The notes below the pieces were generated by a model, which worked only from the letters and a program-made list of their open reading frames with translations, had not been told where the DNA came from and ran no database searches. The position numbers and the translations under genes are program-made. From a virus, in IMG/VR virus record IMGVR_UViG_3300021425_000170, positions 1 to 25,893 of that record: DNA of 25,893 nucleotides. One strand, 5' to 3'. Position 1 is the stretch's first letter. Each line of letters opens with the position of its first letter. Positions 116 to 22,310 of the stretch are shown here, one piece after another.

Positions 116-1137
116 TTGAATCAATACTAAAAAATGAACTCTACATGGGTTACATCTTTGGTATCATGATTATTGGTGGATTTATCCGTGAATATCATGT
201 GCTAGAAGATGTTTATTCCCTTGCTAAAAAATATGTAAAAGATAATCGTTTGATTATTCTGATTACATCACTCCTTGGTGGTGTGCTACCTATCCCTGGA
301 CGTGTTGCTCTGTCAGCACCACTCCTAGATGCTATTGCACCACCAGACAAAAAGAAGCGTAGTGCCTATGGCATTATTGATTATCTTTCTACTCACCACT
401 ACTACTGGTGGTCTCCTCTTGAGAAAACTGTAGTCCTTCCGATGGCAGTTCTTGGAGTATCTTACTCAACATTCCTTGGAATGATTTGGATTCCTCTAGC
501 GATCACTCTTGGATATACTTTCTGGTATATCTTCAGCAAGATTGACCCAGACCGCGTTGATGTTCTCGCTAATGTTCGTGAATTCAATGCTCTTCGTGCC
601 TTCAAAGGTTGGGCACCTATGATCGCCACGGTGATCTTCCTGCTGAGCTCTGGTAAGGATGGAGCAATCTTCTTCTTCCCTTGGTTTGCTGCTATGGCAA
701 TCTACTATAGTATCCTCTGTAAAGATTGGAAGTGGGGTCGTTGGTTGGATGGTAAGTTCGCTATCGTGGCAACCATTGTTCTTGCTCTTGGTGGTGTAGT
801 TGAGTTACTCAATGCTCCTGTAAAGGAATATCTAAGTGCTGCTACTCCAGAAACACTTATTCCTGTTTCTATTGTTGCTGCTGTTGCTGCTTGGGTTATG
901 GGATCTTCTGGTAAGTATGCTGGTATGGCATCTTTGCTCACTAAGATCTTCGGTCCTCAGTATCTCGTATGGTTTCTCTGTACCGAGTATGCTGGTTACC
1001 TTCTGTCCCCCGCTCATAAGTGTTTGATGATCGGTCAGCAGTATTTCGGCACACCCATAAGGAAGTATTATAAGGTAATCGGTGGATTGTGTGCTATACT
1101 AGTAGGGTACGCAGGACTGGTAACCTTCCTTCTATGA
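112..1137 (+). CDS. Polytopic membrane protein resembling the DUF401 permease-like family
   Basis: This 341-residue protein is strongly hydrophobic, with about eight to ten membrane segments, for example around residues 10-28, 45-75, 105-140, 165-200, 215-235, 245-265 and 320-341. Two motifs recall the DUF401 group of the ion-transporter superfamily: a Gly/Pro-rich turn GGVLPIPGRVALSAP near residues 55-70, and a late YLLSPAHKCLMIGQQYF near residues 295-315. From what I recall, the pair marks the two half-repeats of such permeases. If the match holds it would be an inner-membrane transporter, but the substrate is unknown. It overlaps the upstream gene (ATGA at 112) and the downstream gene (ATGA at 1134), so all three are probably translated from one message. 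A transporter-like gene is unusual beside virion genes and may be of host origin. I am sure it is an integral membrane protein and moderately sure of the family. Confidence 0.8.
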   Translation: MIESILKNELYMGYIFGIMIIGGFIREYHVLEDVYSLAKKYVKDNRLIILITSLLGGVLPIPGRVALSAPLLDAIAPPDKKKRSAYGIIDYLSTHHYYWWSPLEKTVVLPMAVLGVSYSTFLGMIWIPLAITLGYTFWYIFSKIDPDRVDVLANVREFNALRAFKGWAPMIATVIFLLSSGKDGAIFFFPWFAAMAIYYSILCKDWKWGRWLDGKFAIVATIVLALGGVVELLNAPVKEYLSAATPETLIPVSIVAAVAAWVMGSSGKYAGMASLLTKIFGPQYLVWFLCTEYAGYLLSPAHKCLMIGQQYFGTPIRKYYKVIGGLCAILVGYAGLVTFLL

Positions 1138-1373
1138 CCAAACCCACTGTCATCCTTGAACGCTCCCCTTATCGTTATGTCCAGTGTGGTCTCCTAGAGA
1201 TCAATGGCAAACCTGACTACCGTATCCAAAAGTTCAACGAATGGACCAAGCGTTATACAGACATGTATTTGCTTGATAACCAGATGCAACTTGATGTATG
1301 CTTAGAAGATCCTGAATATACTAAGTGGTTAGATCCTGACCCTGAGGTTGGTGCTTACCGCAAGTTTGACTAG
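1134..1373 (+). CDS. Small hypothetical protein, 79 residues
   Basis: I chose the ATG at 1134, giving MTKPTVILERSP..., because it overlaps the TGA of the membrane protein gene as ATGA. A longer version starting at 1089 would lie inside that gene and is less likely. The protein is soluble, rich in Tyr, Asp and Glu (for example EDPEYTKWLDPDPEVGAYRKFD at the C-terminus), with two cysteines and no signal peptide or membrane segment. I do not recognise a family. It is the last gene before a 364-base non-coding stretch containing the hairpin array, tRNA and late promoter, so it probably closes the upstream operon. Confidence 0.75.
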   Translation: MTKPTVILERSPYRYVQCGLLEINGKPDYRIQKFNEWTKRYTDMYLLDNQMQLDVCLEDPEYTKWLDPDPEVGAYRKFD

Positions 1374-1398
1374 TCTCGGGATGACTCTAAAAGCGCCC

Positions 1399-1448
1399 TG
1401 GTCGGGATGGTCTTTTGACCCCTGGGTTTCTTACTTCCTAAAAGTAAG
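1399..1448 (+). repeat. Hairpin-array unit 1
   Basis: The unit begins TGGTCGGGAT (1399-1408). It contains a small hairpin A (GGTC, loop TTTT, GACC; 1409-1420), then a 9-base linker CCTGGGTTT, then hairpin B (CTTACTT at 1430-1436 pairing with AAGTAAG at 1442-1448, loop CCTAA). Unit 2 repeats the order, spacing and flanking bases while the stem sequences differ in a pairing-preserving way. There is no U-tract after the hairpins, so this is not a standard terminator. A further weak AGTC/GACT stem lies just upstream at 1372-1386. Confidence 0.7.
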
Positions 1449-1502
1449 TGGTGCGGATGGGAATACTCCCGCCTGGTTTCTTGCTTCCAGTTAAAGAGCA
1501 AG
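1449..1502 (+). repeat. Hairpin-array unit 2
   Basis: The unit begins TGGTGCGGAT (1449-1458), matching unit 1 apart from two bases. Hairpin A is GGGA, loop ATAC, TCCC (1459-1470). The 9-base linker is GCCTGGTTT. Hairpin B is CTTGCT (1480-1485) pairing with AGCAAG (1497-1502), extendable by one wobble pair. Compared with unit 1, both stems changed on both sides while pairing was kept, and the A-to-B distance is the same. Confidence 0.7.
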
Positions 1503-1567
1503 TGGTGGATCCAAATGACCCCTTCCGTGTGGTTGATTTCCTGTTTCTCAACTGAATAAAAAACAGG
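1503..1567 (+). repeat. Hairpin-array unit 3, diverged
   Basis: The unit starts TGGTGGAT, which corresponds to the start of units 1 and 2 with two bases missing. Hairpin A is not convincing here. Hairpin B is clear: CCTGTTT (1540-1546) pairs with AAACAGG (1561-1567) around a 14-base loop. It is again preceded by TTT and followed by TGGCG, as the other B hairpins are preceded by TTT and followed by TGGTG. Confidence 0.6.
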
Positions 1568-1584
1568 TGGCGTGCATGTGTCCT

Positions 1585-1600
1585 GGGGATTGACCTCCCC
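1585..1600 (+). other. GC-rich hairpin just upstream of the tRNA
   Basis: GGGGA (1585-1589) pairs perfectly with TCCCC (1596-1600) around the loop TTGACC. It resembles the A-type hairpins of the array and ends 7 bases before the tRNA. It could be a fourth, partial unit or a structure that guides processing of the tRNA 5' end. No U-run follows, so termination is unlikely. Confidence 0.55.
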
Positions 1601-1607
1601 ATTTCCT

Positions 1608-1679
1608 GCGGGTGTAGTTCAGCGGTAGAACGCTATCCTTCCAAGTTAGATGTCGTCGGTTCGAGTCCGATCACCCGCT
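1608..1679 (+). tRNA. tRNA-Gly (anticodon UCC)
   Basis: The 72-base cloverleaf is complete. The acceptor stem GCGGGTG pairs with CACCCGC (1672-1678), followed by discriminator T. The D stem is GTTC/GAAC, and the T arm GTCGG-TTCGAGT-CCGAT contains the TTCGA signature. The anticodon arm is CTATC-CTTCCAA-GTTAG, giving anticodon TCC and hence glycine codons GGA and probably other GGN. The anticodon stem has one U-U mismatch at the fourth pair. The 3' CCA is not encoded, and a T-rich run follows. GGA is very frequent in the structural genes downstream, so the tRNA plausibly supports their translation. Confidence 0.95.
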
Positions 1680-1691
1680 TATTTTTCATAA

Positions 1692-1699
1692 CATAAATA
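1692..1699 (+). promoter_or_regulatory. T4-type late promoter box (CATAAATA)
   Basis: CATAAATA differs by one base from the T4 late consensus TATAAATA. It lies 38 bases before the ATG of the first long structural gene and 12 bases after the tRNA. T4 late promoters are read by host RNA polymerase with the phage sigma-like factor gp55. I assume the same here by analogy. The start codon at 1738 has no obvious Shine-Dalgarno sequence before it. Confidence 0.65.
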
Positions 1700-1737: not shown

Positions 1738-4686
1738 ATGGCTGAACGCTTTCCTCTCGTTGTTAATCCTATATCTAGGAAAATTGAAGAAATTAAAGAG
1801 ACAGACAGTTTAGAACTTACTGGAAATGGCATTAGTATTTCTGGTAGTACTGGAACTTCTACTCAATATCTAAAGAGTACTGGATCTGCGGAACTGGAAT
1901 GGGCAGATCCATTTGTAGAAATTTCTACTCGCTCTAGTTTTTCGTTAAACAATCTAACTGTTAACGGAACTTTGACAACAACGGGAGTGTTAGATGTTGG
2001 TACTAATGCAGTAGTTTCTGGAACTCTGGGTATTGGTACTAGTGCTACTGTTGGTACAGACCTTTCCATTGGAAATAATACAACGATAGGTGGTACACTA
2101 GGAGTAACATCAAATACTACTATAGGTGGTACATTAGATGTAACATCAAATGCAAGTGTTGGTGGAACATTAGAAACTGGTGGAAATCTTACAGTTGATG
2201 GTTCGTATCTTGTAAAGGATATTGGTGGAACAGTACAATTTAAAACTAATGCTAGTGTGTTAGCTTTGAATGATGATTTTGAAACAGGATCACCCACAGA
2301 AACAGTTTCGTTGTTAGTTAGGAGAGGTGATGAAAGATCTACTGGAATTAGATGGAGTGAATTCTTTAAAAGATGGCAGTTTAGTAACGACGGACTTACA
2401 TACTATAATATTCTACTTCCAACAGAGACTGTTTCTGCTGCTGCTGACGAGTTTGGTGCATCTGCAGACCCTGATAGATACAACATATCGTCTACTGAAA
2501 CTATTATCCAAAGTTCGGAAAGTTTCTTAGAAGTAACATTAGAAAATTCTTCCGACATTCAGTTCTTTACTCTTAATCACTCTGTAAAAATCTTTGGTGC
2601 AAGCACAACAATTCCAGCATTGCTTCCAGCAGCACCAGCAGTTGGATCTACTAGTTATACTGCATCAAATGAAGAAAGCACTTTCAATGATGAGACAATT
2701 CCCCACTCTTTCTATGCTTATGCAGTAGCTGCTTTTAAGTTGGATAATGGTGATATAAGTTCTTATACTTCATTCAATACTATCATTGAAAATTTGGCAA
2801 GTGATAGAATGAATGAAGCAAACTATAACAGTCTTGTTATTAATAGAGCTTCTCAAACTGGTATTCTTGTTTATAGAGGTGAGTTTAGCACACAAGCAGA
2901 TGCTCAAGCAGCAATTAATAATATTGAAACTTCTGGAAATAGTTCTTTTAAACTTATTAATGTATTAGCAACGAAAGAATTCCCTAGTGATGCTCTTACT
3001 GCACAGTTTATTGACTATGGATCTTATGATATTCCTCTTTGGAGTGCAAAAAATTCTGATGGAACATTTAAAGAAGAAGTACACTTCCCATTAAATCCAC
3101 CTATTACTCCCAAGAGAGGGTGGGCTGTTGCTGGCATTAGAGACTTGGATCAACTTGATGGTACTTTTGTTATTGATATTCCAGGATTGATAGGAGATTC
3201 CAATGGATATCAAATTTATCTTTATCACGATGATACAGAGAACATTCAATCTGCTATTAATCAGACTGCATTGGAAGGAAGAAACTATCTAATTATTCCT
3301 GGTGGTACGTATTTATTAGATCACATTAAATTGCCAAGTGGTTTTACTCTTGGTGGACTGAACGATGCTACAGTTTTCAAAAAGCAATATTGGTCTACTA
3401 CAAACATCAATTCTTCTACTTATGATGGTTTGAAAAACTCTATGTTCTTTAGTGATACATTTGATGCTACTGTTCCATCTAGTCAATGGACTTTATCTGA
3501 CTTTACGATGAGAGATTTAGTTATTGATGGTAATGGTGTAAATCAAATCTTATATGATGTTAGTAGCTTAGGAGATGAAACAAATAATTGCATGGTTGGT
3601 TTACCAAATAGTAGTTTCCTTAGATTAATCAATATTAAAATTAGAAACGTTTCTGGTCCAGCATTGTTTGCTGAAGGTTCTACCAACTTACAGATTTCTG
3701 GTTCTACTTTCCTCGATGGTATGCAAACAGAAAGATATGGTACTCCTTGTGTACTGATGTCTGACTGTGAGAATACAACAATTGGATCTTCATTCTTTAG
3801 AAACTTCCCAGGAGCACTTGATTTTACAACTAATCAGGTTCTTGCTATGTCTGGTAACGTTATTAGAAGTTGTGGTGCTGGTATTCAGATTTATGGATCT
3901 GTTAATACTGACGTTCTTGATAACATTATCCTAGGTCCAAATGATGAATACATTCCAGTTCCCGACTTGTATGATACTGATTATGATGGTGTTAATATTT
4001 CAGTCTATCCTGGTATTGAATCTCAGACTCCAGTGTATCAGTATCAATCTGAAGGACAAAATGTAGATCTCAGTGAAACTGTTATTACTTTTAATGTATA
4101 TCAAGCAACGGTTACTAATGGAATTGAAAGTGTTGACTTAGCTAACCCACTTTCTGATGTACAATTTTTATACTTCAATCCAATTGACGAGAATTTAGAT
4201 CCTCAGGATGATATTAGTGTAGGTCAAATTAGATTTAAACTAAGTTCTGATGCTAGTTCTAATATTCCTGCAGCATCTACTGGAAGTTATCTGGTTTATT
4301 CTATAACTGGTATTGATTATAAGAATATTGGAAATGATATTGAAACAGTTCTTGATACTGGAGAACTTTCTGGAACTACTCCAGAGTCTTATATTGTTAC
4401 TGTTACAAATGAAAATGCTTTCAATGCATTAATTATTGGTGATTATGTTAGATTAGTATCGCATGATTATAGTCCAGATTCTGGTGTTAATGTCTGGAAA
4501 ATTCTAGACAAAATCGTTGATACTGAAAACAAAATTGAATTAGAACCATATCAGGAAGATGCTGATGGCAATCTTTCTCTAGTAGAAGTTACTGATATTG
4601 GATCTGCTATTGCTCCAGGGGGAGGATATTTACAACTGAGAGAAACATTTATTATTGCTAAGGGAGTTATCTCCAGAGTCCAGTAA
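1738..4686 (+). CDS. Fibre-like virion protein with repeat shaft and beta-helix, 982 residues
   Basis: The N-terminus (MAERFPLVVNPISRKIEEI) is of the kind I associate with cyanomyovirus fibre proteins and probably attaches to the particle. Residues about 72-157 are short beta repeats built on GTLxV and GTLxVTSN, such as TIGGTLGVTSN and TIGGTLDVTSN, typical of trimeric fibre shafts. Residues about 518-741 look like a right-handed parallel beta-helix of the pectate-lyase type, with IIPGGTYLLDHIKLPSGFTL at its start and turns such as NTTIGSSFFRN and LAMSGNVIRSCGAGIQIYGS. Such domains in phages often bind or cut surface polysaccharide, but I see no assignable catalytic residues. It is the first gene after the late promoter at 1692. 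The alternative is a baseplate-wedge accessory protein. I am confident that it is a virion surface protein and less sure of the exact part. Confidence 0.82.
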   Translation: MAERFPLVVNPISRKIEEIKETDSLELTGNGISISGSTGTSTQYLKSTGSAELEWADPFVEISTRSSFSLNNLTVNGTLTTTGVLDVGTNAVVSGTLGIGTSATVGTDLSIGNNTTIGGTLGVTSNTTIGGTLDVTSNASVGGTLETGGNLTVDGSYLVKDIGGTVQFKTNASVLALNDDFETGSPTETVSLLVRRGDERSTGIRWSEFFKRWQFSNDGLTYYNILLPTETVSAAADEFGASADPDRYNISSTETIIQSSESFLEVTLENSSDIQFFTLNHSVKIFGASTTIPALLPAAPAVGSTSYTASNEESTFNDETIPHSFYAYAVAAFKLDNGDISSYTSFNTIIENLASDRMNEANYNSLVINRASQTGILVYRGEFSTQADAQAAINNIETSGNSSFKLINVLATKEFPSDALTAQFIDYGSYDIPLWSAKNSDGTFKEEVHFPLNPPITPKRGWAVAGIRDLDQLDGTFVIDIPGLIGDSNGYQIYLYHDDTENIQSAINQTALEGRNYLIIPGGTYLLDHIKLPSGFTLGGLNDATVFKKQYWSTTNINSSTYDGLKNSMFFSDTFDATVPSSQWTLSDFTMRDLVIDGNGVNQILYDVSSLGDETNNCMVGLPNSSFLRLINIKIRNVSGPALFAEGSTNLQISGSTFLDGMQTERYGTPCVLMSDCENTTIGSSFFRNFPGALDFTTNQVLAMSGNVIRSCGAGIQIYGSVNTDVLDNIILGPNDEYIPVPDLYDTDYDGVNISVYPGIESQTPVYQYQSEGQNVDLSETVITFNVYQATVTNGIESVDLANPLSDVQFLYFNPIDENLDPQDDISVGQIRFKLSSDASSNIPAASTGSYLVYSITGIDYKNIGNDIETVLDTGELSGTTPESYIVTVTNENAFNALIIGDYVRLVSHDYSPDSGVNVWKILDKIVDTENKIELEPYQEDADGNLSLVEVTDIGSAIAPGGGYLQLRETFIIAKGVISRVQ

Positions 4687-4692
4687 TCAAAT

Positions 4693-4700
4693 TATAAATA
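4693..4700 (+). promoter_or_regulatory. T4-type late promoter box (TATAAATA)
   Basis: An exact match to the T4 late consensus lies 43 bases before the ATG at 4744, in the only gap among the large structural genes. It probably starts a transcript covering the next four plus-strand genes, which have almost no intergenic space. Confidence 0.75.
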
Positions 4701-4743: not shown

Positions 4744-7700
4744 ATGGCTGCTGTAAATAATAATTCATCAACTGTTATTATCGGAAGGACTGCCCCAGTC
4801 CCTGCTGGACAACAGACTTCTGCGAAGTCAATTCCAGTAGTTATTGCGAGTGATCAATCTGCTATTCCTGTTGAAGAACAGAATAAGCAACAATCCGAAG
4901 TTGCTCTTTCTCTACTTGGTATTCCAAGATCGGAAGTTGCTCTTGGTATTTTTGCTGATGTTAACACATATGATGTCAACCCAACAGAATGGACTGCTTA
5001 TCCAGAGCAGTTTACATCTCTTGCTCAATACCAACCAGGCGGAAATATTCTTCTTGAAAAGTATTCTGGATATGGTGGAGATCAAGACTGGGGTCTAACT
5101 CACATCGCTGAAGAAGCAGGTGCTATGATTGAAGCACCATCCGATGAATACTCTATTCTTACATCAAAGAGATTCTTCCGTTATCAGCCTGGTCGTGTTT
5201 CTGCTGCTACCTTTGGTGTAAAACTAAACAGAGGACCATATACTATTACCGCCAATGATCCAGCATTCAAAGCTGTTAGAAACCCAACAATTAAAAAGTA
5301 TGGAATCTTTGATAAGTTTGATGGATATTATTTTGAATCTAAAAATGATGGATATGGAGACAACTTCTCTGTAGTAAGAAGAACGCAGTCTATCATTAGA
5401 GATAATCCACTTCCTTTCAGCACTACTGCTGGTTATCAAACTGAAGACTATGCGTGGGTTGGTGTAGCACAGGTAGAATCAAATGCTCCAACATATTCAA
5501 ATGCATATGATATTCTCAAAGCAAATAAGAGATTCCTTCAAGAAGTAGCAGCAAACTTTATTGGAACAGAAGGTCAGGGTGCTGAGACATTAGATGGTCC
5601 TGATGTAATTGATGGTGGTACTGGTCCATCTTATTACACTCCAACTGCTGCTACGTATACTCCAGCGACTGGAGAATTGAGTCTTACTATTGGTGCTCAC
5701 AGTCATGAAGTTGGAGACACTGTTCTATTAGAACCAAATTCTTTAAGTTTCACTTGTACTAGTGATGGAAACCAAGTTGCAAAGTCATATCCTAGAGCAA
5801 GTGGAGATGATGGAACTCAGTATGGAGCTGGAGATAATAGAGGAGAACCAGATCCAGCATACAATAAAGATTTAAAAATCCTTGCTGTTACTGGTACTAC
5901 TATTACAATCAATGTTGGTATCTCTTCTGATACTGCTGCTCATAATTTCACTGGAGCATCTGCAGATGCTGTTGCTATCTATTCTACACAAAATGCTGAG
6001 TGGGATAAGTGCCGTAGAGATGCTGGTCTAGTTATTGAAGGTCTTCTGCATGACCTTAAGTATGGTGGAAATGCTAGCACTGTTTATAATACATATAGAT
6101 TCTTTAACAAAACAGATTTAGATAACATTCGTCTTTATGTTGATGATTCTTCTCAGGAAGTTCTGAGATATACAGCAATTCGTAAAGCAATTAGTGATAT
6201 TCTAGGTCGTTCTACAGTACAATATTTTACTCCAGGTGCAGGTACAAGTTACGATCCTGCTACTGGAGATTTAGAACTTTCTATTGGATCTCACAGTCTT
6301 GTTCCTGGACTTAGAGTACAACTTGCTGCAAACTCATTGATCTTTACATGTGATACTGATCCATCAAAACCAAAGTCTTACCCTAGAGCAACAGGTGAAG
6401 ACGGATCTCTAGTGACTCCTGGAGCAAATAACAACATCGGTAATCCAGACCCAGCATATAATAGAGCAATTGAAATTACTGCAGTAACTGGTACTACTAT
6501 CACCGTTAATGTTGGTATCTCGTCTGATACTGCGGCACACCAATTTGTAAGTGCTGATACAAATGCAGTTAAAGCATATCGTCCAACATATTATACACCA
6601 ACAAATACTGGAAGCACTACAGCATATGATCCAGCAACTGGTCTTCTAACTCTTACCATTGGTAATCATAGTATTGAGGCAGGATCTTCTATTTTACTAC
6701 AACCAAATTCACTTAGTTTCACTTGTACTAGTGATGGAAACCAAGTTGCAAAGTCATATCCTAGAGCAAGTGGAGATGATGGAACTCAGTATGGAGCGGG
6801 TGATAATACTGGAAGACCTGATCCAGCATACAAGAGAGGAATTAGAGTTGAATCTGTAACAGCAACATCTATCACTATTAATGTTGGCATCTCATCTGAT
6901 ACTGCTGCACATACATTCACCGCAGCTGCTTCTAATGCTGTTATAGCATATGCTCCTACAGCACCATACTATAGCGATCTCAAAGGATATGATGCGTATG
7001 CTGGTGCAACTAATACTTTACCTATTTCAGAACAGGGTGCATATGATGCTGCAGCATCTCTCTTAAGTATTCTTACTACTGCTCTCACTGGTGCTGGTAA
7101 CTACTCATCTATTCCATCTCCAACAGGATCTGCTGCTGGTGAGATGTGTGTTTATAGAGATGGGTTGGTCATGACTCATGGTGCAGCACATGATCCGTCA
7201 TTACTGTTAGAAAAAGTTGATTATGCTGTAACAGATCTAATCAATGATGGTATTAATAACTGGTTGAGAATAAAAATTCCATCAGGAGCATCCGTTTTAC
7301 AAGTAGGTCAGAATTTTTACTTTAATAAGAACGGAAATACTGCTGATAATATTGTCTCTACTGATGCTGATAATTTATCTGATGGAAGTATTTGGCATGT
7401 TCATAGTATTAGAGACATGATATCTAATTCTTCTGGAGTTTTCCAAGATATTAGATTGTCTAAGTATCCAAACAATGAAGAAATTTATACTACAGTCGGT
7501 GAAGGTTCTACAGCAAGTCCTTCCAACCCATGGGGTAATAATGAAGATAAAGCATATCCAGATGTAGAAGAGTTTGTTATTGATACTGCTGCTAATATTA
7601 CTACTGCTGGATATTCTCTGCAGACTCCAACTCCATTCTTGCTTCCAGATGATGCTAGAGCATATAAAGGACAGAATTATTCTGATGATTCGTTGAATGA

Positions 7701-9936
7701 TAATCCAACAGCATATGTTGATGGTGCATTCCCTTATCTCTATCCTTCTGGTGCTTCTGGAGATCCAAACTCTGTTGGATATATTGACACTACTCTCCAG
7801 GGCAGTGGTGGTATTCCCACATTAAAACAACAGATTAATTATGTTAACAAGAGACTTTACAAAAACTGGTGTTGGTTTAATGTAGATCCAAAATACTATA
7901 AAGTATATGAGTATCGTGTTCCTCGCTCTAGAATGAGTGGAGAGAAACTAAATGGTGTCATTACAGATGTTGTTTATAGCGACAACGTTCTTGACAAAAG
8001 AGCTGGTGATCCTGTACTAGAACCAACGACACAAGAACAGATCGAGTTTGAATCTGTTTGGGATTTAGATCCAACAAAAGTTACCATGTATAAAGTTGAA
8101 TTCTCATGGTATGGTGCTGTTGGTGCTACCTTCCTTGCATATGTTCCTGTTGAAAACAACGAGGCGAGATGGGTAAGAGTCCACCACCTCAGAGCATCTA
8201 ACCAGTTAAAGGTTGCTTCTCTTGGTAACGCTACACTTCCAATTACCTACATGGTATATGGTGGTGGCAGTAAGAACAGACATGGATATCAAAATACAGA
8301 TAGACTTGCTAATACCGAGTCTGGATATGGTTCATTCTCTGAGCAGTTGGTTAAGTATGGTGCTTCTTACTATATTGATGGTGGTGACAGAGGAACTGTA
8401 AGACTATTCAGTTATGCGTCTGAAACACTAAAAGAAATTGGTGGTTCTAAGTATTTAATTTCTGGTAATGCACTAGACAATCCAAATCTATTTGATTATA
8501 CTAACGGATCAAAACTAAATCCAAACCCAGGAACATCTTACATCAATGCATTTGCATTGAAGATTGATAATACAGGAATTGCTCCACCTGTAAGTGACTA
8601 TTATATTAATGCTAGAGTTGTTACTGGTAATGCTAATGATCAAGACGTTAGAGTTATCTGGGCAAGACCAGCAGAGTCAACTACTTACGCTGGACCAAAG
8701 ATATCTAACACTGCCATTAATTCATACGATCCCAACACTGGTCTACTGACACTTGATATTGGAGAGCATAATCATCAAGTTGGAGATCGTGTCTTAATAG
8801 AAGAAGAAGCATTAGGATTTACTTGCGGACTAGATAATTTTGCCTCAACAAAATATTATCCTAGAGCAACGGGATCTAATGAGCCAGGTGGTGCTGATCC
8901 AGGATACAATAACGAATTGGAAATTCTTTCTAAAACTTCAACCACCATTACTGTCAATGTAGGTGACTCCTCTGATACAACTGAGCATAGATTTGTTGGA
9001 TATAATACTGGAGTTTATTCTACTACCGACACAATTATCACTGTTAATGCTGGACCATTCCTTTATCTAAGTAGAGCACTGTCTGCTACGAGTGGTAACA
9101 TTTCCCTTGTTGTTGATAGACCACAACCTTTGATTGGAATCAAGTGTAGAAGGGAGATTAATGGTGTTAGAAATAGAGTTCAAATCTATCCTACTAGACT
9201 AGCCACTGGACTAACATCTAGTTCCGAGTCACTAGTTGTTCAATTAATCAAGTCTCCTTTATTCCAGACTCTAAGTGTTCCTGCATCGGGATCATCGATT
9301 GGTGTTAATGCATCTATTAACATCGGCAAGAGAGGAAAGAAAGTTCTTCTTCCTTCTTCTGAAATTACTGAGTATGGAACATATTTGGAAGAAGGTCAAA
9401 GTACTTATGGTTACTTCCGATATACGGTTGTTGGAGATACTTCTGGTGAAGCATCAACAATGCTTGGACTACTAGAGAAGACGGGTGGAAGTTACTATTT
9501 CAGTGCTAGTGAAGTAACGATTGATGAATTAAATATTAGGGGATCGTTCTTAAGAGTTTCTAACTGGTCTGGTCCTGGAGATAACAGTGATGATCCAGAT
9601 CTAACAGCAACAGTTGAATCTCCTGGATTTAATGGATTCTTCTCATCAACTTTATCTAGACTCTCTGCTGTACAGATAGATACAGAACAGAGATCACCAA
9701 TTCCTGGAACTGGTACAGTTGTTACTACTTTATTCTCTCCAAACTCTGGAGCAGAATTTGACTTACAATCATACTTTGATTATAATAAAGATTATCTGTC
9801 CTTCCCATTGACTGACTTAGTTGATTCGCTTTATGTTTGTGCTTCTTCTAAATCATTCTATGGTGATAGTAACGGAACAGGTGCATACGGTAAACGCGGA
9901 GAAATTTTAGCAAGTCTTACTTGGGAGGAGCAGTGA
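4744..9936 (+). CDS. Giant virion structural protein with four copies of an immunoglobulin-sized module, 1730 residues
   Basis: The N-terminus carries KSIPVVIASDQSAIPV, a motif I have seen in many marine phage structural proteins. A conserved core follows with RYQPGR at residues 146-151. Four copies of a roughly 110-120 residue beta-rich module lie at about 295-413, 493-612, 614-738 and 1319-1429. Each has the pattern YxPxTGxLxLxIGxHS, then FTC, YPRA, DPAYN, and TTITxNVGxSSDTxxH. Between copies 1 and 2 lies a helical segment with a CRRDAGLVIEGLLHDL motif. A second conserved core begins at MYKVEFSWYGAVG (residue 1115) and includes YYIDGGDRGT. The protein ends LTWEEQ. It is paralogous to the next gene but has a far longer middle. 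A tail-fibre or baseplate-associated role is inferred from size, repeats and neighbours. No enzyme motif is seen. Confidence 0.85.
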   Translation: MAAVNNNSSTVIIGRTAPVPAGQQTSAKSIPVVIASDQSAIPVEEQNKQQSEVALSLLGIPRSEVALGIFADVNTYDVNPTEWTAYPEQFTSLAQYQPGGNILLEKYSGYGGDQDWGLTHIAEEAGAMIEAPSDEYSILTSKRFFRYQPGRVSAATFGVKLNRGPYTITANDPAFKAVRNPTIKKYGIFDKFDGYYFESKNDGYGDNFSVVRRTQSIIRDNPLPFSTTAGYQTEDYAWVGVAQVESNAPTYSNAYDILKANKRFLQEVAANFIGTEGQGAETLDGPDVIDGGTGPSYYTPTAATYTPATGELSLTIGAHSHEVGDTVLLEPNSLSFTCTSDGNQVAKSYPRASGDDGTQYGAGDNRGEPDPAYNKDLKILAVTGTTITINVGISSDTAAHNFTGASADAVAIYSTQNAEWDKCRRDAGLVIEGLLHDLKYGGNASTVYNTYRFFNKTDLDNIRLYVDDSSQEVLRYTAIRKAISDILGRSTVQYFTPGAGTSYDPATGDLELSIGSHSLVPGLRVQLAANSLIFTCDTDPSKPKSYPRATGEDGSLVTPGANNNIGNPDPAYNRAIEITAVTGTTITVNVGISSDTAAHQFVSADTNAVKAYRPTYYTPTNTGSTTAYDPATGLLTLTIGNHSIEAGSSILLQPNSLSFTCTSDGNQVAKSYPRASGDDGTQYGAGDNTGRPDPAYKRGIRVESVTATSITINVGISSDTAAHTFTAAASNAVIAYAPTAPYYSDLKGYDAYAGATNTLPISEQGAYDAAASLLSILTTALTGAGNYSSIPSPTGSAAGEMCVYRDGLVMTHGAAHDPSLLLEKVDYAVTDLINDGINNWLRIKIPSGASVLQVGQNFYFNKNGNTADNIVSTDADNLSDGSIWHVHSIRDMISNSSGVFQDIRLSKYPNNEEIYTTVGEGSTASPSNPWGNNEDKAYPDVEEFVIDTAANITTAGYSLQTPTPFLLPDDARAYKGQNYSDDSLNDNPTAYVDGAFPYLYPSGASGDPNSVGYIDTTLQGSGGIPTLKQQINYVNKRLYKNWCWFNVDPKYYKVYEYRVPRSRMSGEKLNGVITDVVYSDNVLDKRAGDPVLEPTTQEQIEFESVWDLDPTKVTMYKVEFSWYGAVGATFLAYVPVENNEARWVRVHHLRASNQLKVASLGNATLPITYMVYGGGSKNRHGYQNTDRLANTESGYGSFSEQLVKYGASYYIDGGDRGTVRLFSYASETLKEIGGSKYLISGNALDNPNLFDYTNGSKLNPNPGTSYINAFALKIDNTGIAPPVSDYYINARVVTGNANDQDVRVIWARPAESTTYAGPKISNTAINSYDPNTGLLTLDIGEHNHQVGDRVLIEEEALGFTCGLDNFASTKYYPRATGSNEPGGADPGYNNELEILSKTSTTITVNVGDSSDTTEHRFVGYNTGVYSTTDTIITVNAGPFLYLSRALSATSGNISLVVDRPQPLIGIKCRREINGVRNRVQIYPTRLATGLTSSSESLVVQLIKSPLFQTLSVPASGSSIGVNASINIGKRGKKVLLPSSEITEYGTYLEEGQSTYGYFRYTVVGDTSGEASTMLGLLEKTGGSYYFSASEVTIDELNIRGSFLRVSNWSGPGDNSDDPDLTATVESPGFNGFFSSTLSRLSAVQIDTEQRSPIPGTGTVVTTLFSPNSGAEFDLQSYFDYNKDYLSFPLTDLVDSLYVCASSKSFYGDSNGTGAYGKRGEILASLTWEEQ
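5626..5982 (+). repeat. Beta-module copy 1 within the 1730-residue protein
   Basis: It runs from YYTPTAATYTPATGELSL through TITINVGISSDTAAH to AVAIYS. It shares an 83-base identical block with copy 3. Confidence 0.75.
5746..5828 (+). repeat. 83-base exact direct repeat, copy A
   Basis: The DNA from AGTTTCACTTG to ATGGAGC is identical to 6715-6797, including third codon positions. It lies inside beta-module copy 1. The offset is 969 bases, a multiple of three. Confidence 0.9.
6220..6579 (+). repeat. Beta-module copy 2 within the 1730-residue protein
   Basis: It has the same order of motifs (TGDLELSIGSHS, FTCD, YPRATGEDG, DPAYN, TITVNVGISSDTAAH) but is clearly diverged from copies 1 and 3 in DNA sequence. 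Confidence 0.75.
6585..6957 (+). repeat. Beta-module copy 3 within the 1730-residue protein
   Basis: It follows copy 2 directly. It has TGLLTLTIGNHS, then the block identical to copy 1, then SITINVGISSDTAAH. Confidence 0.75.
6715..6797 (+). repeat. 83-base exact direct repeat, copy B
   Basis: Identical to 5746-5828. The sequences on both sides diverge at once (for example CTGGAG against GGGTGA after the block), so the boundary is sharp. Confidence 0.9.
8698..9029 (+). repeat. Beta-module copy 4 within the 1730-residue protein
   Basis: The most distant copy lies after the second conserved core: TGLLTLDIGEHNHQVGD, FTCG, YPRATGSN, DPGYN, TITVNVGDSSDTTEH. Confidence 0.7.
9923..9930 (+). promoter_or_regulatory. 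Strong ribosome binding site GGGAGGAG
   Basis: GGGAGGAG overlaps the last codons of the upstream gene and lies nine bases before the ATG at 9940. It encodes the Trp-Glu-Glu part of the terminal LTWEEQ, so the conserved C-terminus and the next gene's ribosome site use the same bases. Confidence 0.7.
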
Positions 9937-18617: not shown

Positions 18618-19993
18618 TGGCATCAGTTAATCAAGGGTATGTTACTAGTTTCAACTTATCGGAAACGATTGATGAAACTCTCACCATCAACAACTTGGGT
18701 GGAGGAAGTATATCTGATGACCTAAGTATATTTGCTGGCAACACTAAAAATTTTAGTAGAATTGTTTATAAACCAAACACTCCAAATTTTTCTGCTACTA
18801 TAACAGCAGGAACTACTCAATTTCAATTTGATTTAATTTCTTGCTATGGAAATGGAGACCCTATTAAAATTAAGATAGGAAAAACCATTAGTGATATAAC
18901 TTATGATTTTGAATTGGATGAATTAACCATAGAGTTTGACTCTGCTCATGGTTTAGTTCCCGATTCTATAGGAAATTTTATAACGATTGTTGATTCTTAT
19001 TTCGATGGACCAGGAACAATTTTCTTTAATGAAAGAACACTAAAGATCGCTACCATTCCAACTGCTACAAGTATTACAATTGTAAATACTGGATACTTAG
19101 ATATATACGAGGATGAACCAGGAGTTTTCGATCCATCTGCAAATCTTGCTGTTGGACAATCAACAAGATATACCTATGCAGTAACAACATCATTTCCCTT
19201 ACCTGCTCCTCTTTCATATACCAATGATTATTTTGCAGTACTATCGAATGGAATTAATCAATTTAAATTATCTAATTCATATAGGAGAGGACAGTTAATT
19301 GTTCCATTATTAATTACTGATCCTATTAATGATCCTTTAATTTTTGAGAGAAGTAATGCTGTAACACAGCAAAATTTACTTAATCTGGTTAGACCAGATT
19401 TTCAAGACGAAAATAATGCTACTGGATCAGTTCCAATTTTTTATAATGATGTTCTTGGCAGATCTTTTAATGAAAATTTTGATTACCTTGAATCTATCTT
19501 GGACTCTTCAAATTATTTTAGATTAAAGAAATATAGAAGATCAACCAGTAATGTCTTTCGTGAGAATCCTATTAAACTAGAGGGAAATATGAGAACTCTA
19601 GATCCAGATAATGCCAACGTTGGCACAGAAGAAATATTTGCTGAGACTAGTCCTGGTATTTTTATTATCGATCCAGATTCTTCTACAGATAATATTATTA
19701 AACTAAGATCATTCTCGGATAATACATCACCATGGGAATATGACGGTGTTGCTACACTAGAATACTCTGCACAATCTCTTGTGTCAACTACAACATCACA
19801 GGCACAAGCATTAGCTGGTCAAACTATGAGTATCGGAAACATGATTCTCAAAGGCAATCCAATTGGTATGGATAATTTGCAGGGAGTAGTTGTAGAGTCT
19901 GGAACTTTTACTCCTATCCAGAAATTTACACATAAACTACCAGTGCTTATTAATGGAGAAGAATATAATATTCTTCTGACTAATCTAATTTAA
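18617..19993 (+). CDS. Hypothetical virion protein, 458 residues
   Basis: The ATG overlaps the stop of the leucine-rich gene by one base (TAATG), so the two are coupled. The protein is rich in beta-prone residues, Asn, Asp and Ser, has no membrane segment or signal peptide, and resembles its neighbours in composition. Visible stretches include an early VTSFNLSETIDETLTINNLG and a C-terminal HKLPVLINGEEYNILLTNLI. I do not recognise a domain. Its place at the end of a run of structural genes suggests a virion or fibre-assembly role. Its stop shares the bases TTAA with the stop of the reverse-strand gene that follows. Confidence 0.78.
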   Translation: MASVNQGYVTSFNLSETIDETLTINNLGGGSISDDLSIFAGNTKNFSRIVYKPNTPNFSATITAGTTQFQFDLISCYGNGDPIKIKIGKTISDITYDFELDELTIEFDSAHGLVPDSIGNFITIVDSYFDGPGTIFFNERTLKIATIPTATSITIVNTGYLDIYEDEPGVFDPSANLAVGQSTRYTYAVTTSFPLPAPLSYTNDYFAVLSNGINQFKLSNSYRRGQLIVPLLITDPINDPLIFERSNAVTQQNLLNLVRPDFQDENNATGSVPIFYNDVLGRSFNENFDYLESILDSSNYFRLKKYRRSTSNVFRENPIKLEGNMRTLDPDNANVGTEEIFAETSPGIFIIDPDSSTDNIIKLRSFSDNTSPWEYDGVATLEYSAQSLVSTTTSQAQALAGQTMSIGNMILKGNPIGMDNLQGVVVESGTFTPIQKFTHKLPVLINGEEYNILLTNLI

Positions 19994-22281
19994 CTTCCTA
20001 GTATCATATAGAAGGTATTGCCAGCATCATCTTCTATAGGTAGGTAATGTGATATATTTTCTTCATTATACACAATGACATTGCCAGCGACATTGGTATC
20101 GTGTCGTATCTCCAAGTCATTGTAAGCAACTGTTGAATTATTATTTAAATTTCCTCCTCCATTAGAACTAAAATCATCTACTAATGCAACACCAAATGAT
20201 GTTGTTAGTCCAGTTGAGTTAGCAGCAAATGGTGGTGAAGTATCTGTTGGTTTGAAGCAAACTTCTTTGTTTACATCTGATGATGTGAATACAATATTTT
20301 TTACTTTTGCTGGATTGTATTCTAATACTGTTAGTAGAGCAGGACTTGATCCATCAATATGAGATATTGTAATGCGATTATTTACACTATCAATGTTAGT
20401 TACTCTTACTTTGCTGTAGAGTTCTTTGACAGATCCATCTAATCTTTCGGCAAAATTTACAGCAGGGAATGCATGTACATAATCATTGAGAGTGATGTCT
20501 GTAACATCATCGAGATCTAAAACTACGCTTGTTGAAGCAGTGTCATTCTGAGTAGCTAGTAACCTTTGTTTTATTACACCTTGACAGAAAAACTTTAGAC
20601 CTTCATCAGTCAATCCTGAAGTTTGATATACATAGAATCTTTGATTGCCTATTGAGTTTGATGTGGTAGCATTCTTTAAAAGAATGTTAGATCCATTGTA
20701 TAGATCTACTAATCTACCTACAGCAACAACTCCAGGATCTCCTTCTGTATCATCATCATATGTAAATGATAAACCATCTGATAGTACTATTTGATCTTTG
20801 GTGATATCAGATAATCCGTATGAATCTGTTATCGTTTCTATTCTATCATCATAAACATCACCATTACCGAAAGCAGCAAGAGCTCTATGGTTAACAAAAG
20901 TTAGTGAAGAAGAACTATAAGTTCCTACTGGTCTTGGATCAATTTCTATACTATTATTGATGACTACATTTGTTACCCTTGTACCAGGAACAATACCATT
21001 ACCAAATACAAAGTTTCCTATTTCAATTCCTTCGGTTGAATTTGGTTGGGAGTTTGATATAGTTACAGTTGATATACTATTTTGTACATTGCAACCAGTT
21101 ATGATGGTTTCTACTTCGGAAATTGAATTGGGGAAACTATAATAAGAAACTATAGGGTTGAAGTTGTTGACATTTGCATAACTATCTGCTGGTTCTGGAG
21201 TCTCTGATGAAGTTATAAACGTTCCTTGTACATCGCCAATTGTTCCTTGTAAACCAACTCCAGTTCCTCCTACACTAATTGAAGTCTCAACGAATGATCT
21301 GAAGTCTCCAATATCATAGTTTTGAAAATAGTCTCTTGTAAATAACTCTTTATAATTTAAATCTATCTCTCCTCTTTGTGGATCTATTAAATTGATATCG
21401 ATTCTCTTTTCTATTTCATCTCCCTCTGGAATAGAATCTTCATCAATAAACCATGTAATTCTTATTTTGTATGCTTCCCATTGAGCTAATGATCCGAGAG
21501 AAACATCTATTGTTCTATAAGCAGATAAGGAATTTGTAGTTCCAGACACTCTGGCGGTGTTGAGATCCGCTGATTGATCTAATTTAGTTTGATCTATTAG
21601 AGTTGTTAGTTTAGTAAAGTCGTAGTTGTTATAATTGAAAGTGTTTGTTGCAGAATCATATGCAAAGTCTCTTGCTTCAGTGCCATCATCAAATTCTATT
21701 TTTACATATCCTCTTGCTCGTACTCTTAAACTGAAATTACCATTTACAGTTGGTTTTAAATACCCCTCCCATTGTATTCCTCCATACAAAGAAGTTGCTT
21801 CCAGAGCAATTTTATTACTAAAATAAAAGTTTCCTCTTTCCCAGAAGTCATCTGTTTTTAAATCAGATTCTTCAACAAATCCCAAGAAATCTGAGGCTGG
21901 ATCATTGGGAGTCTGTCTTAGAATAGCATCGTTATCGTAATAGGTTGCTGATAAACCATCACCACCAGCAAAGTAAGGTTCTGAGGTTGTGAAGTATGCT
22001 TTATCAAATCTATTTTCTAAAGTAATTAGTGGATCATAAACTTCTAGATCTCCATTCGGTTGGATGTTCTTTACAGTTGCTCCAGATGCTGTAGAAAAAG
22101 TACCAGTGTTTAGATCTGATAGATAAATGTTTTGAATAACTCCCAAGTCTTCCCATGTAAAGGAAGTAATACCATCTGACAGTCCATCCAACAAGTTGTT
22201 AAGAGCTATCTTTTTGCTTGGTACATCAGCAAGATTTAAATCTCTTTTTAATCCAAACTTTTTGAATACCTTTAGTGCCAT
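19990..22281 (-). CDS. Fibre-like virion protein with PA14-like domain, 763 residues
   Basis: The N-terminus has FGLKRDLNLADV (residues 9-20), nearly the same spacing and residues as the plus-strand leucine-rich protein (FGLSVPLSLADV), so the two probably share an attachment segment. Residues about 106-300 look like a PA14-type beta-barrel: GLSATYYDND, then WEGYLKPTVNGNFSLRVRAR, then GYVKIEFDDG and a later YKIRITWF. PA14 domains commonly bind carbohydrates, so binding of the host surface is plausible. The rest (residues 330-763) is beta-rich and unrecognised. It is read against its structural neighbours from its own late promoter at 22303-22310 and converges tail-to-tail with the 458-residue gene with a four-base overlap. 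Confidence 0.82.
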   Translation of the reverse strand: MALKVFKKFGLKRDLNLADVPSKKIALNNLLDGLSDGITSFTWEDLGVIQNIYLSDLNTGTFSTASGATVKNIQPNGDLEVYDPLITLENRFDKAYFTTSEPYFAGGDGLSATYYDNDAILRQTPNDPASDFLGFVEESDLKTDDFWERGNFYFSNKIALEATSLYGGIQWEGYLKPTVNGNFSLRVRARGYVKIEFDDGTEARDFAYDSATNTFNYNNYDFTKLTTLIDQTKLDQSADLNTARVSGTTNSLSAYRTIDVSLGSLAQWEAYKIRITWFIDEDSIPEGDEIEKRIDINLIDPQRGEIDLNYKELFTRDYFQNYDIGDFRSFVETSISVGGTGVGLQGTIGDVQGTFITSSETPEPADSYANVNNFNPIVSYYSFPNSISEVETIITGCNVQNSISTVTISNSQPNSTEGIEIGNFVFGNGIVPGTRVTNVVINNSIEIDPRPVGTYSSSSLTFVNHRALAAFGNGDVYDDRIETITDSYGLSDITKDQIVLSDGLSFTYDDDTEGDPGVVAVGRLVDLYNGSNILLKNATTSNSIGNQRFYVYQTSGLTDEGLKFFCQGVIKQRLLATQNDTASTSVVLDLDDVTDITLNDYVHAFPAVNFAERLDGSVKELYSKVRVTNIDSVNNRITISHIDGSSPALLTVLEYNPAKVKNIVFTSSDVNKEVCFKPTDTSPPFAANSTGLTTSFGVALVDDFSSNGGGNLNNNSTVAYNDLEIRHDTNVAGNVIVYNEENISHYLPIEDDAGNTFYMILGS

Positions 22282-22302: not shown

Positions 22303-22310
22303 TATTTATT
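22303..22310 (-). promoter_or_regulatory. T4-type late promoter box, reverse strand (AATAAATA)
   Basis: On the reverse strand the sequence reads AATAAATA, one base from the T4 late consensus, 21 bases before the ATG of the PA14 gene at 22281. Confidence 0.6.

Follow-up and report, generated by a model that had tools for sequence, protein, structure and literature searches.

We found that the tandem array upstream of the tRNA-Gly gene in this viral DNA is almost certainly an extended wcaG RNA, in which three H-type pseudoknots follow one another within a larger structured array. The DNA analyzed is a stretch of 25,893 nucleotides (hereafter, the window). A first-pass annotation, made from the letters of the window, had read the array as tandem hairpins selected for RNA structure, and covariation among relatives bore this out. 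Sequence comparison also gives about an even chance to the reading that the array is a modular 3′-end element of the upstream transcript, rather than a 5′ riboswitch that acts on the downstream gene, because the arrays mostly end in a terminator-promoter or at a tRNA, with a constant upstream neighbor and a varied downstream gene.

Parts of the array and its match to wcaG

All parts of the array and the genes adjoining it are on the plus strand, and the order within the array is C-A1-B1-A2-B2-A3-B3-tail. The upstream gene (1089..1373) encodes a 94-amino-acid protein of PHROG 481 (gp206/T4-GC250-like), and its stop codon overlaps the C hairpin (AGUC-UCGGGAU-GACU, 1372..1386). This hairpin is the 5′ module of the array. 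It is followed by CUAAAAGCGCCCUGGU and then by the A1 hairpin (GGUC-UUUU-GACC, 1409..1420); the two are helices 1 and 2 of our alignment of 19 tRNA-Gly-linked arrays. Each of the three pseudoknots is ordered as stem 1, UUU, stem 2, stem 1′, an A-rich loop, stem 2′ and UGG. In B1 (1424..1448), stem 1 is GGG (1424-1426) with CCU (1437-1439), stem 2 is CUUACUU/AAGUAAG, and UUU lies in loop 1. The A2 hairpin (GG-AU-GGG...CCC-G-CC, 1455..1473), which is present in the Rfam structure line and is helix 5 of the alignment, leads to B2 (1473..1502), with CUGG (1473-1476)/CCAG (1487-1490) as stem 1 and CUUGCUU/GAGCAAG as stem 2. The internal mark UGGUG and the A3 linker (1503..1530), seen in the sequence and in the alignment, join B2 to B3. 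The support for A3 as a hairpin was not convincing, and it was rejected as such. The third pseudoknot, B3 (1531..1567), lies outside the Rfam model; its stem 1 is GGUUGA (1531-1536)/UCAACU (1548-1553) and its stem 2 is CCUGUUU/AAACAGG. It is followed by UGGCG (1568..1572), the mark of the last unit in relatives, and by the tail hairpin (GGGG-AUUGACCU-CCCC, 1585..1600; helix 10 of the alignment), which is the counterpart of the terminator hairpin at other loci. The tRNA-Gly gene (anticodon TCC, 1608..1679) begins 7 nt further on. Between it and a gene for a virion structural, tail-fibre-like protein of 982 amino acids (1738..4686) stands ATAAATA, a T4-type late-promoter-like site (1693..1699).

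The features named in the first-pass annotation were all found where it had placed them. TGGTCGGGAT begins at position 1399 and TGGTGCGGAT at position 1449; of the A stems, GGTC/GACC lies at 1409-1420 and GGGA/TCCC within 1459-1470, and the three B stems read as given above. TTT precedes each B stem, and TGGTG, TGGTG and TGGCG follow units 1, 2 and 3, respectively. The GGGG/CCCC hairpin at 1585-1600 and the tRNA-Gly gene at 1608 are in place too. After the window array, no intrinsic terminator (a G+C-rich hairpin with a U-tract) was found: the tail hairpin is followed by AUUUCC, and the U-tract is absent, as had been stated.

In cmscan, positions 1422-1516, which comprise B1-A2-B2 only, matched the Rfam model of wcaG (RF01761) over its full length, with 92.1 bits against a gathering cut-off of 42 and with model positions 1-98 covered without truncation. 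Because of this match, a new RNA family was rejected for the core. The first-pass annotation had matched the array to no riboswitch, which proved wrong for this core, a riboswitch candidate since 2010. It had also stated that a match to a described Rfam family would speak against its proposal, and the RF01761 match therefore does so for B1-A2-B2. Its units cut across RF01761, which includes neither A1 nor unit 3, and neither these unit boundaries nor the suggested alternative of cruciform DNA was needed. The pairing of the linkers with the B loops, the extra hairpin at 1372-1386 and the Rfam match had been overlooked.

The passages on wcaG in Weinberg et al. 2010 (PMC2864571) present it as a riboswitch candidate, rated as probable cis-regulatory and probable riboswitch, near exopolysaccharide (EPS) and high-light genes. 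wcaG is already annotated in several cyanophage genomes. The records that matched the wcaG stretch were all from cyanophages, except for three 36-nt chance matches in mycobacteriophages. The window element shares with RF01761 the host group, T4-like cyanophages and marine metagenomes, but it extends further in the 5′ direction (C and A1 hairpins) and in the 3′ direction (third pseudoknot and tail hairpin); this comparison used the cmscan structure line, which shows nested stems only. The context also differs. The published one, the 5′ UTR of an EPS or high-light gene, was not found in the window, where tRNA-Gly, the late-promoter-like site and the structural gene lie downstream.

Two other Rfam families resemble the array. 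STAXI (RF01728), as the passages on it in Weinberg et al. 2010 describe it, is also a pseudoknot that recurs in tandem, mostly as two or three copies, but it belongs to Enterobacteriales, lies near DNA-manipulation genes and has UUCG loops. The similarity is of architecture only, and the Rfam model search of the window gave no STAXI match at E <= 1. manA (RF01745) is, like wcaG, a cyanophage RNA filed as cis-regulatory, but it is a separate model with no match in the window. The two share a tRNA cluster in S-CREM1 (locus L141, 2472-3370), where 0.9 kb contains wcaG, manA and abiF RNAs interspersed with tRNA-Met, -Leu, -Asn and -Gly. This layout raises the possibility that manA, too, is part of the transcript of a tRNA cluster and not of a 5′ UTR.

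Pairing and covariation of the pseudoknots

In the relatives, each B stem has in front of it a linker complementary to the opening bases of the B loop, and the B elements are therefore pseudoknots. For B2, this pairing was tested in a non-circular manner. Loci from IMG/VR were chosen on the 5′ strand of stem 1 alone, before the loop was read. With this one-strand selection, the complement was present in 193 of 195 other viral loci: CTGG was accompanied by CCAG in 113/115, CAGG by CCTG in 37/37 and CCTG by CAGG in 43/43. A search for stem 1 of the CCAG type with a strict flank gave no match. When only distinct units were counted, 68 of 69 paired, compared with 5% after loops were swapped between stem-1 types. 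The scoring of B2 stem 2 without pairing-based location was spoiled by an extra TGG inside some stems, and the evidence for this stem comes from the other tests.

Stem 1 of B1 has only 3 bp. GAG was found with CTC in 28 of 30 cases and AGG with CCT in 26 of 32, and UGG with CCA was less clean; a chi-square test of the association gave P of about 3e-16, uncorrected for shared descent. Among 15 distinct B3 units, stem 1 occurred as GTTG/CAAC, GATG/CATC and GCTG/CAG, and stem 2 was of five kinds; three of the 15 had one mismatch in stem 1. Two crossing helices that both covary, the mark of an H-type pseudoknot, were found in each of B1, B2 and B3.

Over the whole structure, the alignment of tRNA-Gly-linked arrays contained 21 pairs that had changed on both sides, compared with 9.6 in shuffles, which do not correct for shared descent, and 6-16 when the structure was slid. 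All four pairs of the C hairpin and three of the four pairs of the A1 hairpin had changed in this way. In an alignment of the units themselves, the pairing of stems 1 and 2 was 100%, and we gave this figure less weight because its rows had been pre-selected by the unit descriptor. The patterns used to select IMG/VR loci fix the core, and thus conservation of the core is uninformative there.

The unit descriptor had exactly three matches on the two strands of the 25.9-kb window, all in the array, and matched none of 1000 dinucleotide shuffles of 1381-1605. Over 224 loci, it gave 399 matches in arrays and none in either the shuffles or 404 kb of flanking background. When the background was enlarged to 3.5 Mb, six matches appeared, of which three were apparently true units of other arrays, and 1.9 Mb of unrelated genomes had none. 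We also searched for copies in hosts; a loose pattern returned unrelated GC-rich genomes, and no locus among them had a unit by the descriptor. A covariance model built from the B2 units of relatives only recovered B2, B1 and B3 in the window (E = 1.3e-13, 1.3e-5 and 0.0019, respectively) and nothing else. Applied to 35 loci, it gave 87 matches, falling in arrays. The nested minimum free energy of 1371-1605 was ordinary (z = 0.32), and the case for the structure therefore rests on covariation. A default ungapped repeat search did not list the units because the copies are too diverged.

Unit grammar, array ends and neighboring genes

Across the repeats of relatives, UGGUG, GGAU and UUU/AAA are kept while the stems vary. 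The mark after internal units was UGGUG in 137 of 140, and that after the terminal unit was UGGCG in 151 of 166 arrays. The number of units varies: most arrays have only two B units, and some relatives have extra upstream units, extra C hairpins or two arrays in succession. With this grammar of internal UGGUG, terminal UGGCG and extra units, the Rfam model captures only a part of the RNA. At three tRNA-Leu loci (L140, L024 and L073), the last pseudoknot abuts the tRNA, without the UGGCG mark or the tail hairpin, and L140 and L024 have a second complete array end (UGGCGUGCAUG and a hairpin) about 190 nt upstream. GenBank records carry short hypothetical proteins across the array in S-WAM2 (L125, 2534-2647), S-RSM4 (L121, 3034-3147) and Syn9 (L136, gp208, 2441-2599). 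These are likely to be spurious ORFs within a noncoding RNA.

Right after the array, an intrinsic terminator was found in 120 of 170 distinct loci, compared with 3 in shuffles. Promoters were called as consensus matches, by which 105 of the 120 terminator loci had a TATAAT-like hexamer (shuffled mean 42) and 85 of the 105 also had TTG at the −35 spacing inside the hairpin (shuffled mean 9). The TATAAT-like −10 sits 1-2 nt past the T-tract in 98 of the 105, and the loop of the terminator hairpin carries a −35-like TTGCAT or TTGACA. This terminator-promoter composite (for example, at L012, L083 and L183) occurred within 200 nt downstream in 135 of 223 arrays, compared with about 1 per 20 kb in the remaining sequence of these loci. 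Such a compact composite may mark cassette borders in cyanophage genomes.

A tRNA follows the array instead in 32 of 224 loci, mostly with 4-7 nt from the tail hairpin to the tRNA and usually without a U-tract. The place beside a tRNA, to which the first-pass annotation had drawn attention, is conserved next to tRNA-Gly in many T4-like cyanophages, but it is one of two common contexts; the other, a terminator-promoter, was present at most of the remaining loci. As a tRNA lies directly downstream at so few loci, tRNA linkage was rejected as the defining context. At L019 and L056, the tRNA is about 640 nt from the array. In S-RIM32 (L122, 3060-3704), an annotated endonuclease, with its likely start after the tail hairpin, is inserted between the array and tRNA-Gly, and in Syn1 (L123, 3211-3803) a 2OG-Fe(II) oxygenase gene has this position.

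In 133 of 166 loci, the 1.5 kb upstream of the array include a relative of PHROG 481, and the orientation of the array relative to the upstream gene is constant. The downstream gene varies; among 157 loci, it was an epimerase in 67, hli in 18, a tail fibre in 13 and something else in the rest. In the window, no promoter call close to the array was convincing. ATAAATA has five copies in the window, three of them before ORFs of structural size: the one at 1693, one at 4694-4700 (+) just upstream of ORF 4744-9936, and one at 22303-22309 (−) just upstream of the minus-strand ORF 19990-22281.

Possible functions of the array

The published view would make the array a cis-regulatory leader, a riboswitch or attenuator in which a ligand on the pseudoknots controls the terminator, with readthrough into EPS or high-light genes. 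It agrees with the ratings and gene neighborhood in the wcaG passages of Weinberg et al. 2010, with a terminator directly after the array at 120/170 loci and with an epimerase downstream in 67/157. However, a sigma-70-like promoter begins within the terminator and runs beyond it at constant spacing, and the downstream gene therefore need not depend on readthrough. The downstream genes are varied and include tRNAs and tail fibres, the number of units is variable, and the window has no U-tract and a late-promoter-like site before the gene. On these sequence features, we consider a leader unlikely. The terminator could also be the obstacle to be overcome. A nascent array that modifies RNA polymerase would carry it past the terminator to the next module, a processive antitermination for which the EAR (epsC) RNA and HK022 put are established precedents, and structured RNA units in tandem that stand just before a terminator, and often before EPS genes, would fit such a role. 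But 32 loci, including the window, run into a tRNA, mostly without a terminator, and the next operon has its own promoter, which makes antitermination distinctly improbable.

The variable number of units, and the UGGUG, GGAU and UUU/AAA that persist while the stems vary, would also suit a decoy or assembly array, in which CGGAU, GGGAU and UGGUG presented on pseudoknots titrate or recruit an RNA-binding protein of phage or host, as CsrB-type RNAs do. We give this little credence: no partner protein was identified, the GGA motifs are in many cases next to or inside stems and not in open loops, and most arrays have two B units only. It is also very hard to regard the array as conserved DNA repeats at which recombination exchanges the gene cassettes downstream, RNA structure being of secondary importance. 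The downstream side is indeed a hotspot, and in S-RIM32 and Syn1 foreign genes separate the array from tRNA-Gly. Nevertheless, compensatory changes in both stems keep the pairing despite lost identity, homologous recombination would not need pairing, and the orientation is constant relative to the upstream gene.

In the 3′-end reading, which we favor, the array would be transcribed with the upstream operon and would form the structured 3′ end of that transcript. The three covarying pseudoknots, the terminal-unit mark and the two main kinds of end, a terminator joined to the promoter of the following operon or a tail hairpin that stops a few nucleotides short of a tRNA, support this by comparison. 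RNase P acts on tRNA precursors, and because of this activity, its cut at the 5′ end of the tRNA in tRNA-type arrays, the window included, would generate the 3′ end that termination generates elsewhere. The compact pseudoknots might protect the 3′ end from 3′-to-5′ nucleases, or keep a stable small RNA, during infection. Their geometry seems suited to base triples, with the UUU loop along the 7-bp stem and the A-rich loop along the 4-bp stem. The tail-fibre gene of the window apparently starts from its own late promoter and would not be a target of the array. From the arrangement of the loci we infer that the array and the upstream gene are co-transcribed, that the 3′ end lies here and that RNase P cleaves; the papers on cyanophage transcriptomes that we consulted contained no transcript evidence over the array. 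Of the roles proposed in the first-pass annotation, an RNA-processing or stability element between operons comes close to what the wider comparison favors. Against the 3′-end reading, a terminator after an RNA structure also resembles a transcription-attenuating riboswitch, and a 3′ stabilizer does not explain the need for several variable units with conserved GGAU and UGGUG.

Comparable arrangements are found elsewhere. Tobamoviruses have a domain of tandem pseudoknots upstream of a tRNA-like 3′ end, and REP/BIME and triple-helix elements are 3′ stabilizers. They appear to resemble the array in having consecutive pseudoknots beside a tRNA or at an RNA 3′ end, but they belong to eukaryotic RNA viruses or bacterial repeats, without known homology to it. 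More tentatively, wcaG as a whole could be a variable-length array of H-type pseudoknots, with its last unit marked, that builds protected 3′ ends and is not a riboswitch. An intrinsic terminator joined to the following promoter, or RNase P at an adjoining tRNA, would produce these ends, and such an array would correspond, in phages, to the pseudoknot domains that resist nucleases.

Since 2010, wcaG has counted as an orphan candidate riboswitch, and the statement that it regulates EPS or high-light genes recurs in later papers on cyanophages. Should the array instead close the upstream transcript at its 3′ end, this annotation would be mistaken and searches for a ligand would be misdirected. 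It would then offer a testable case of RNA stabilization or processing by phages of abundant marine cyanobacteria.
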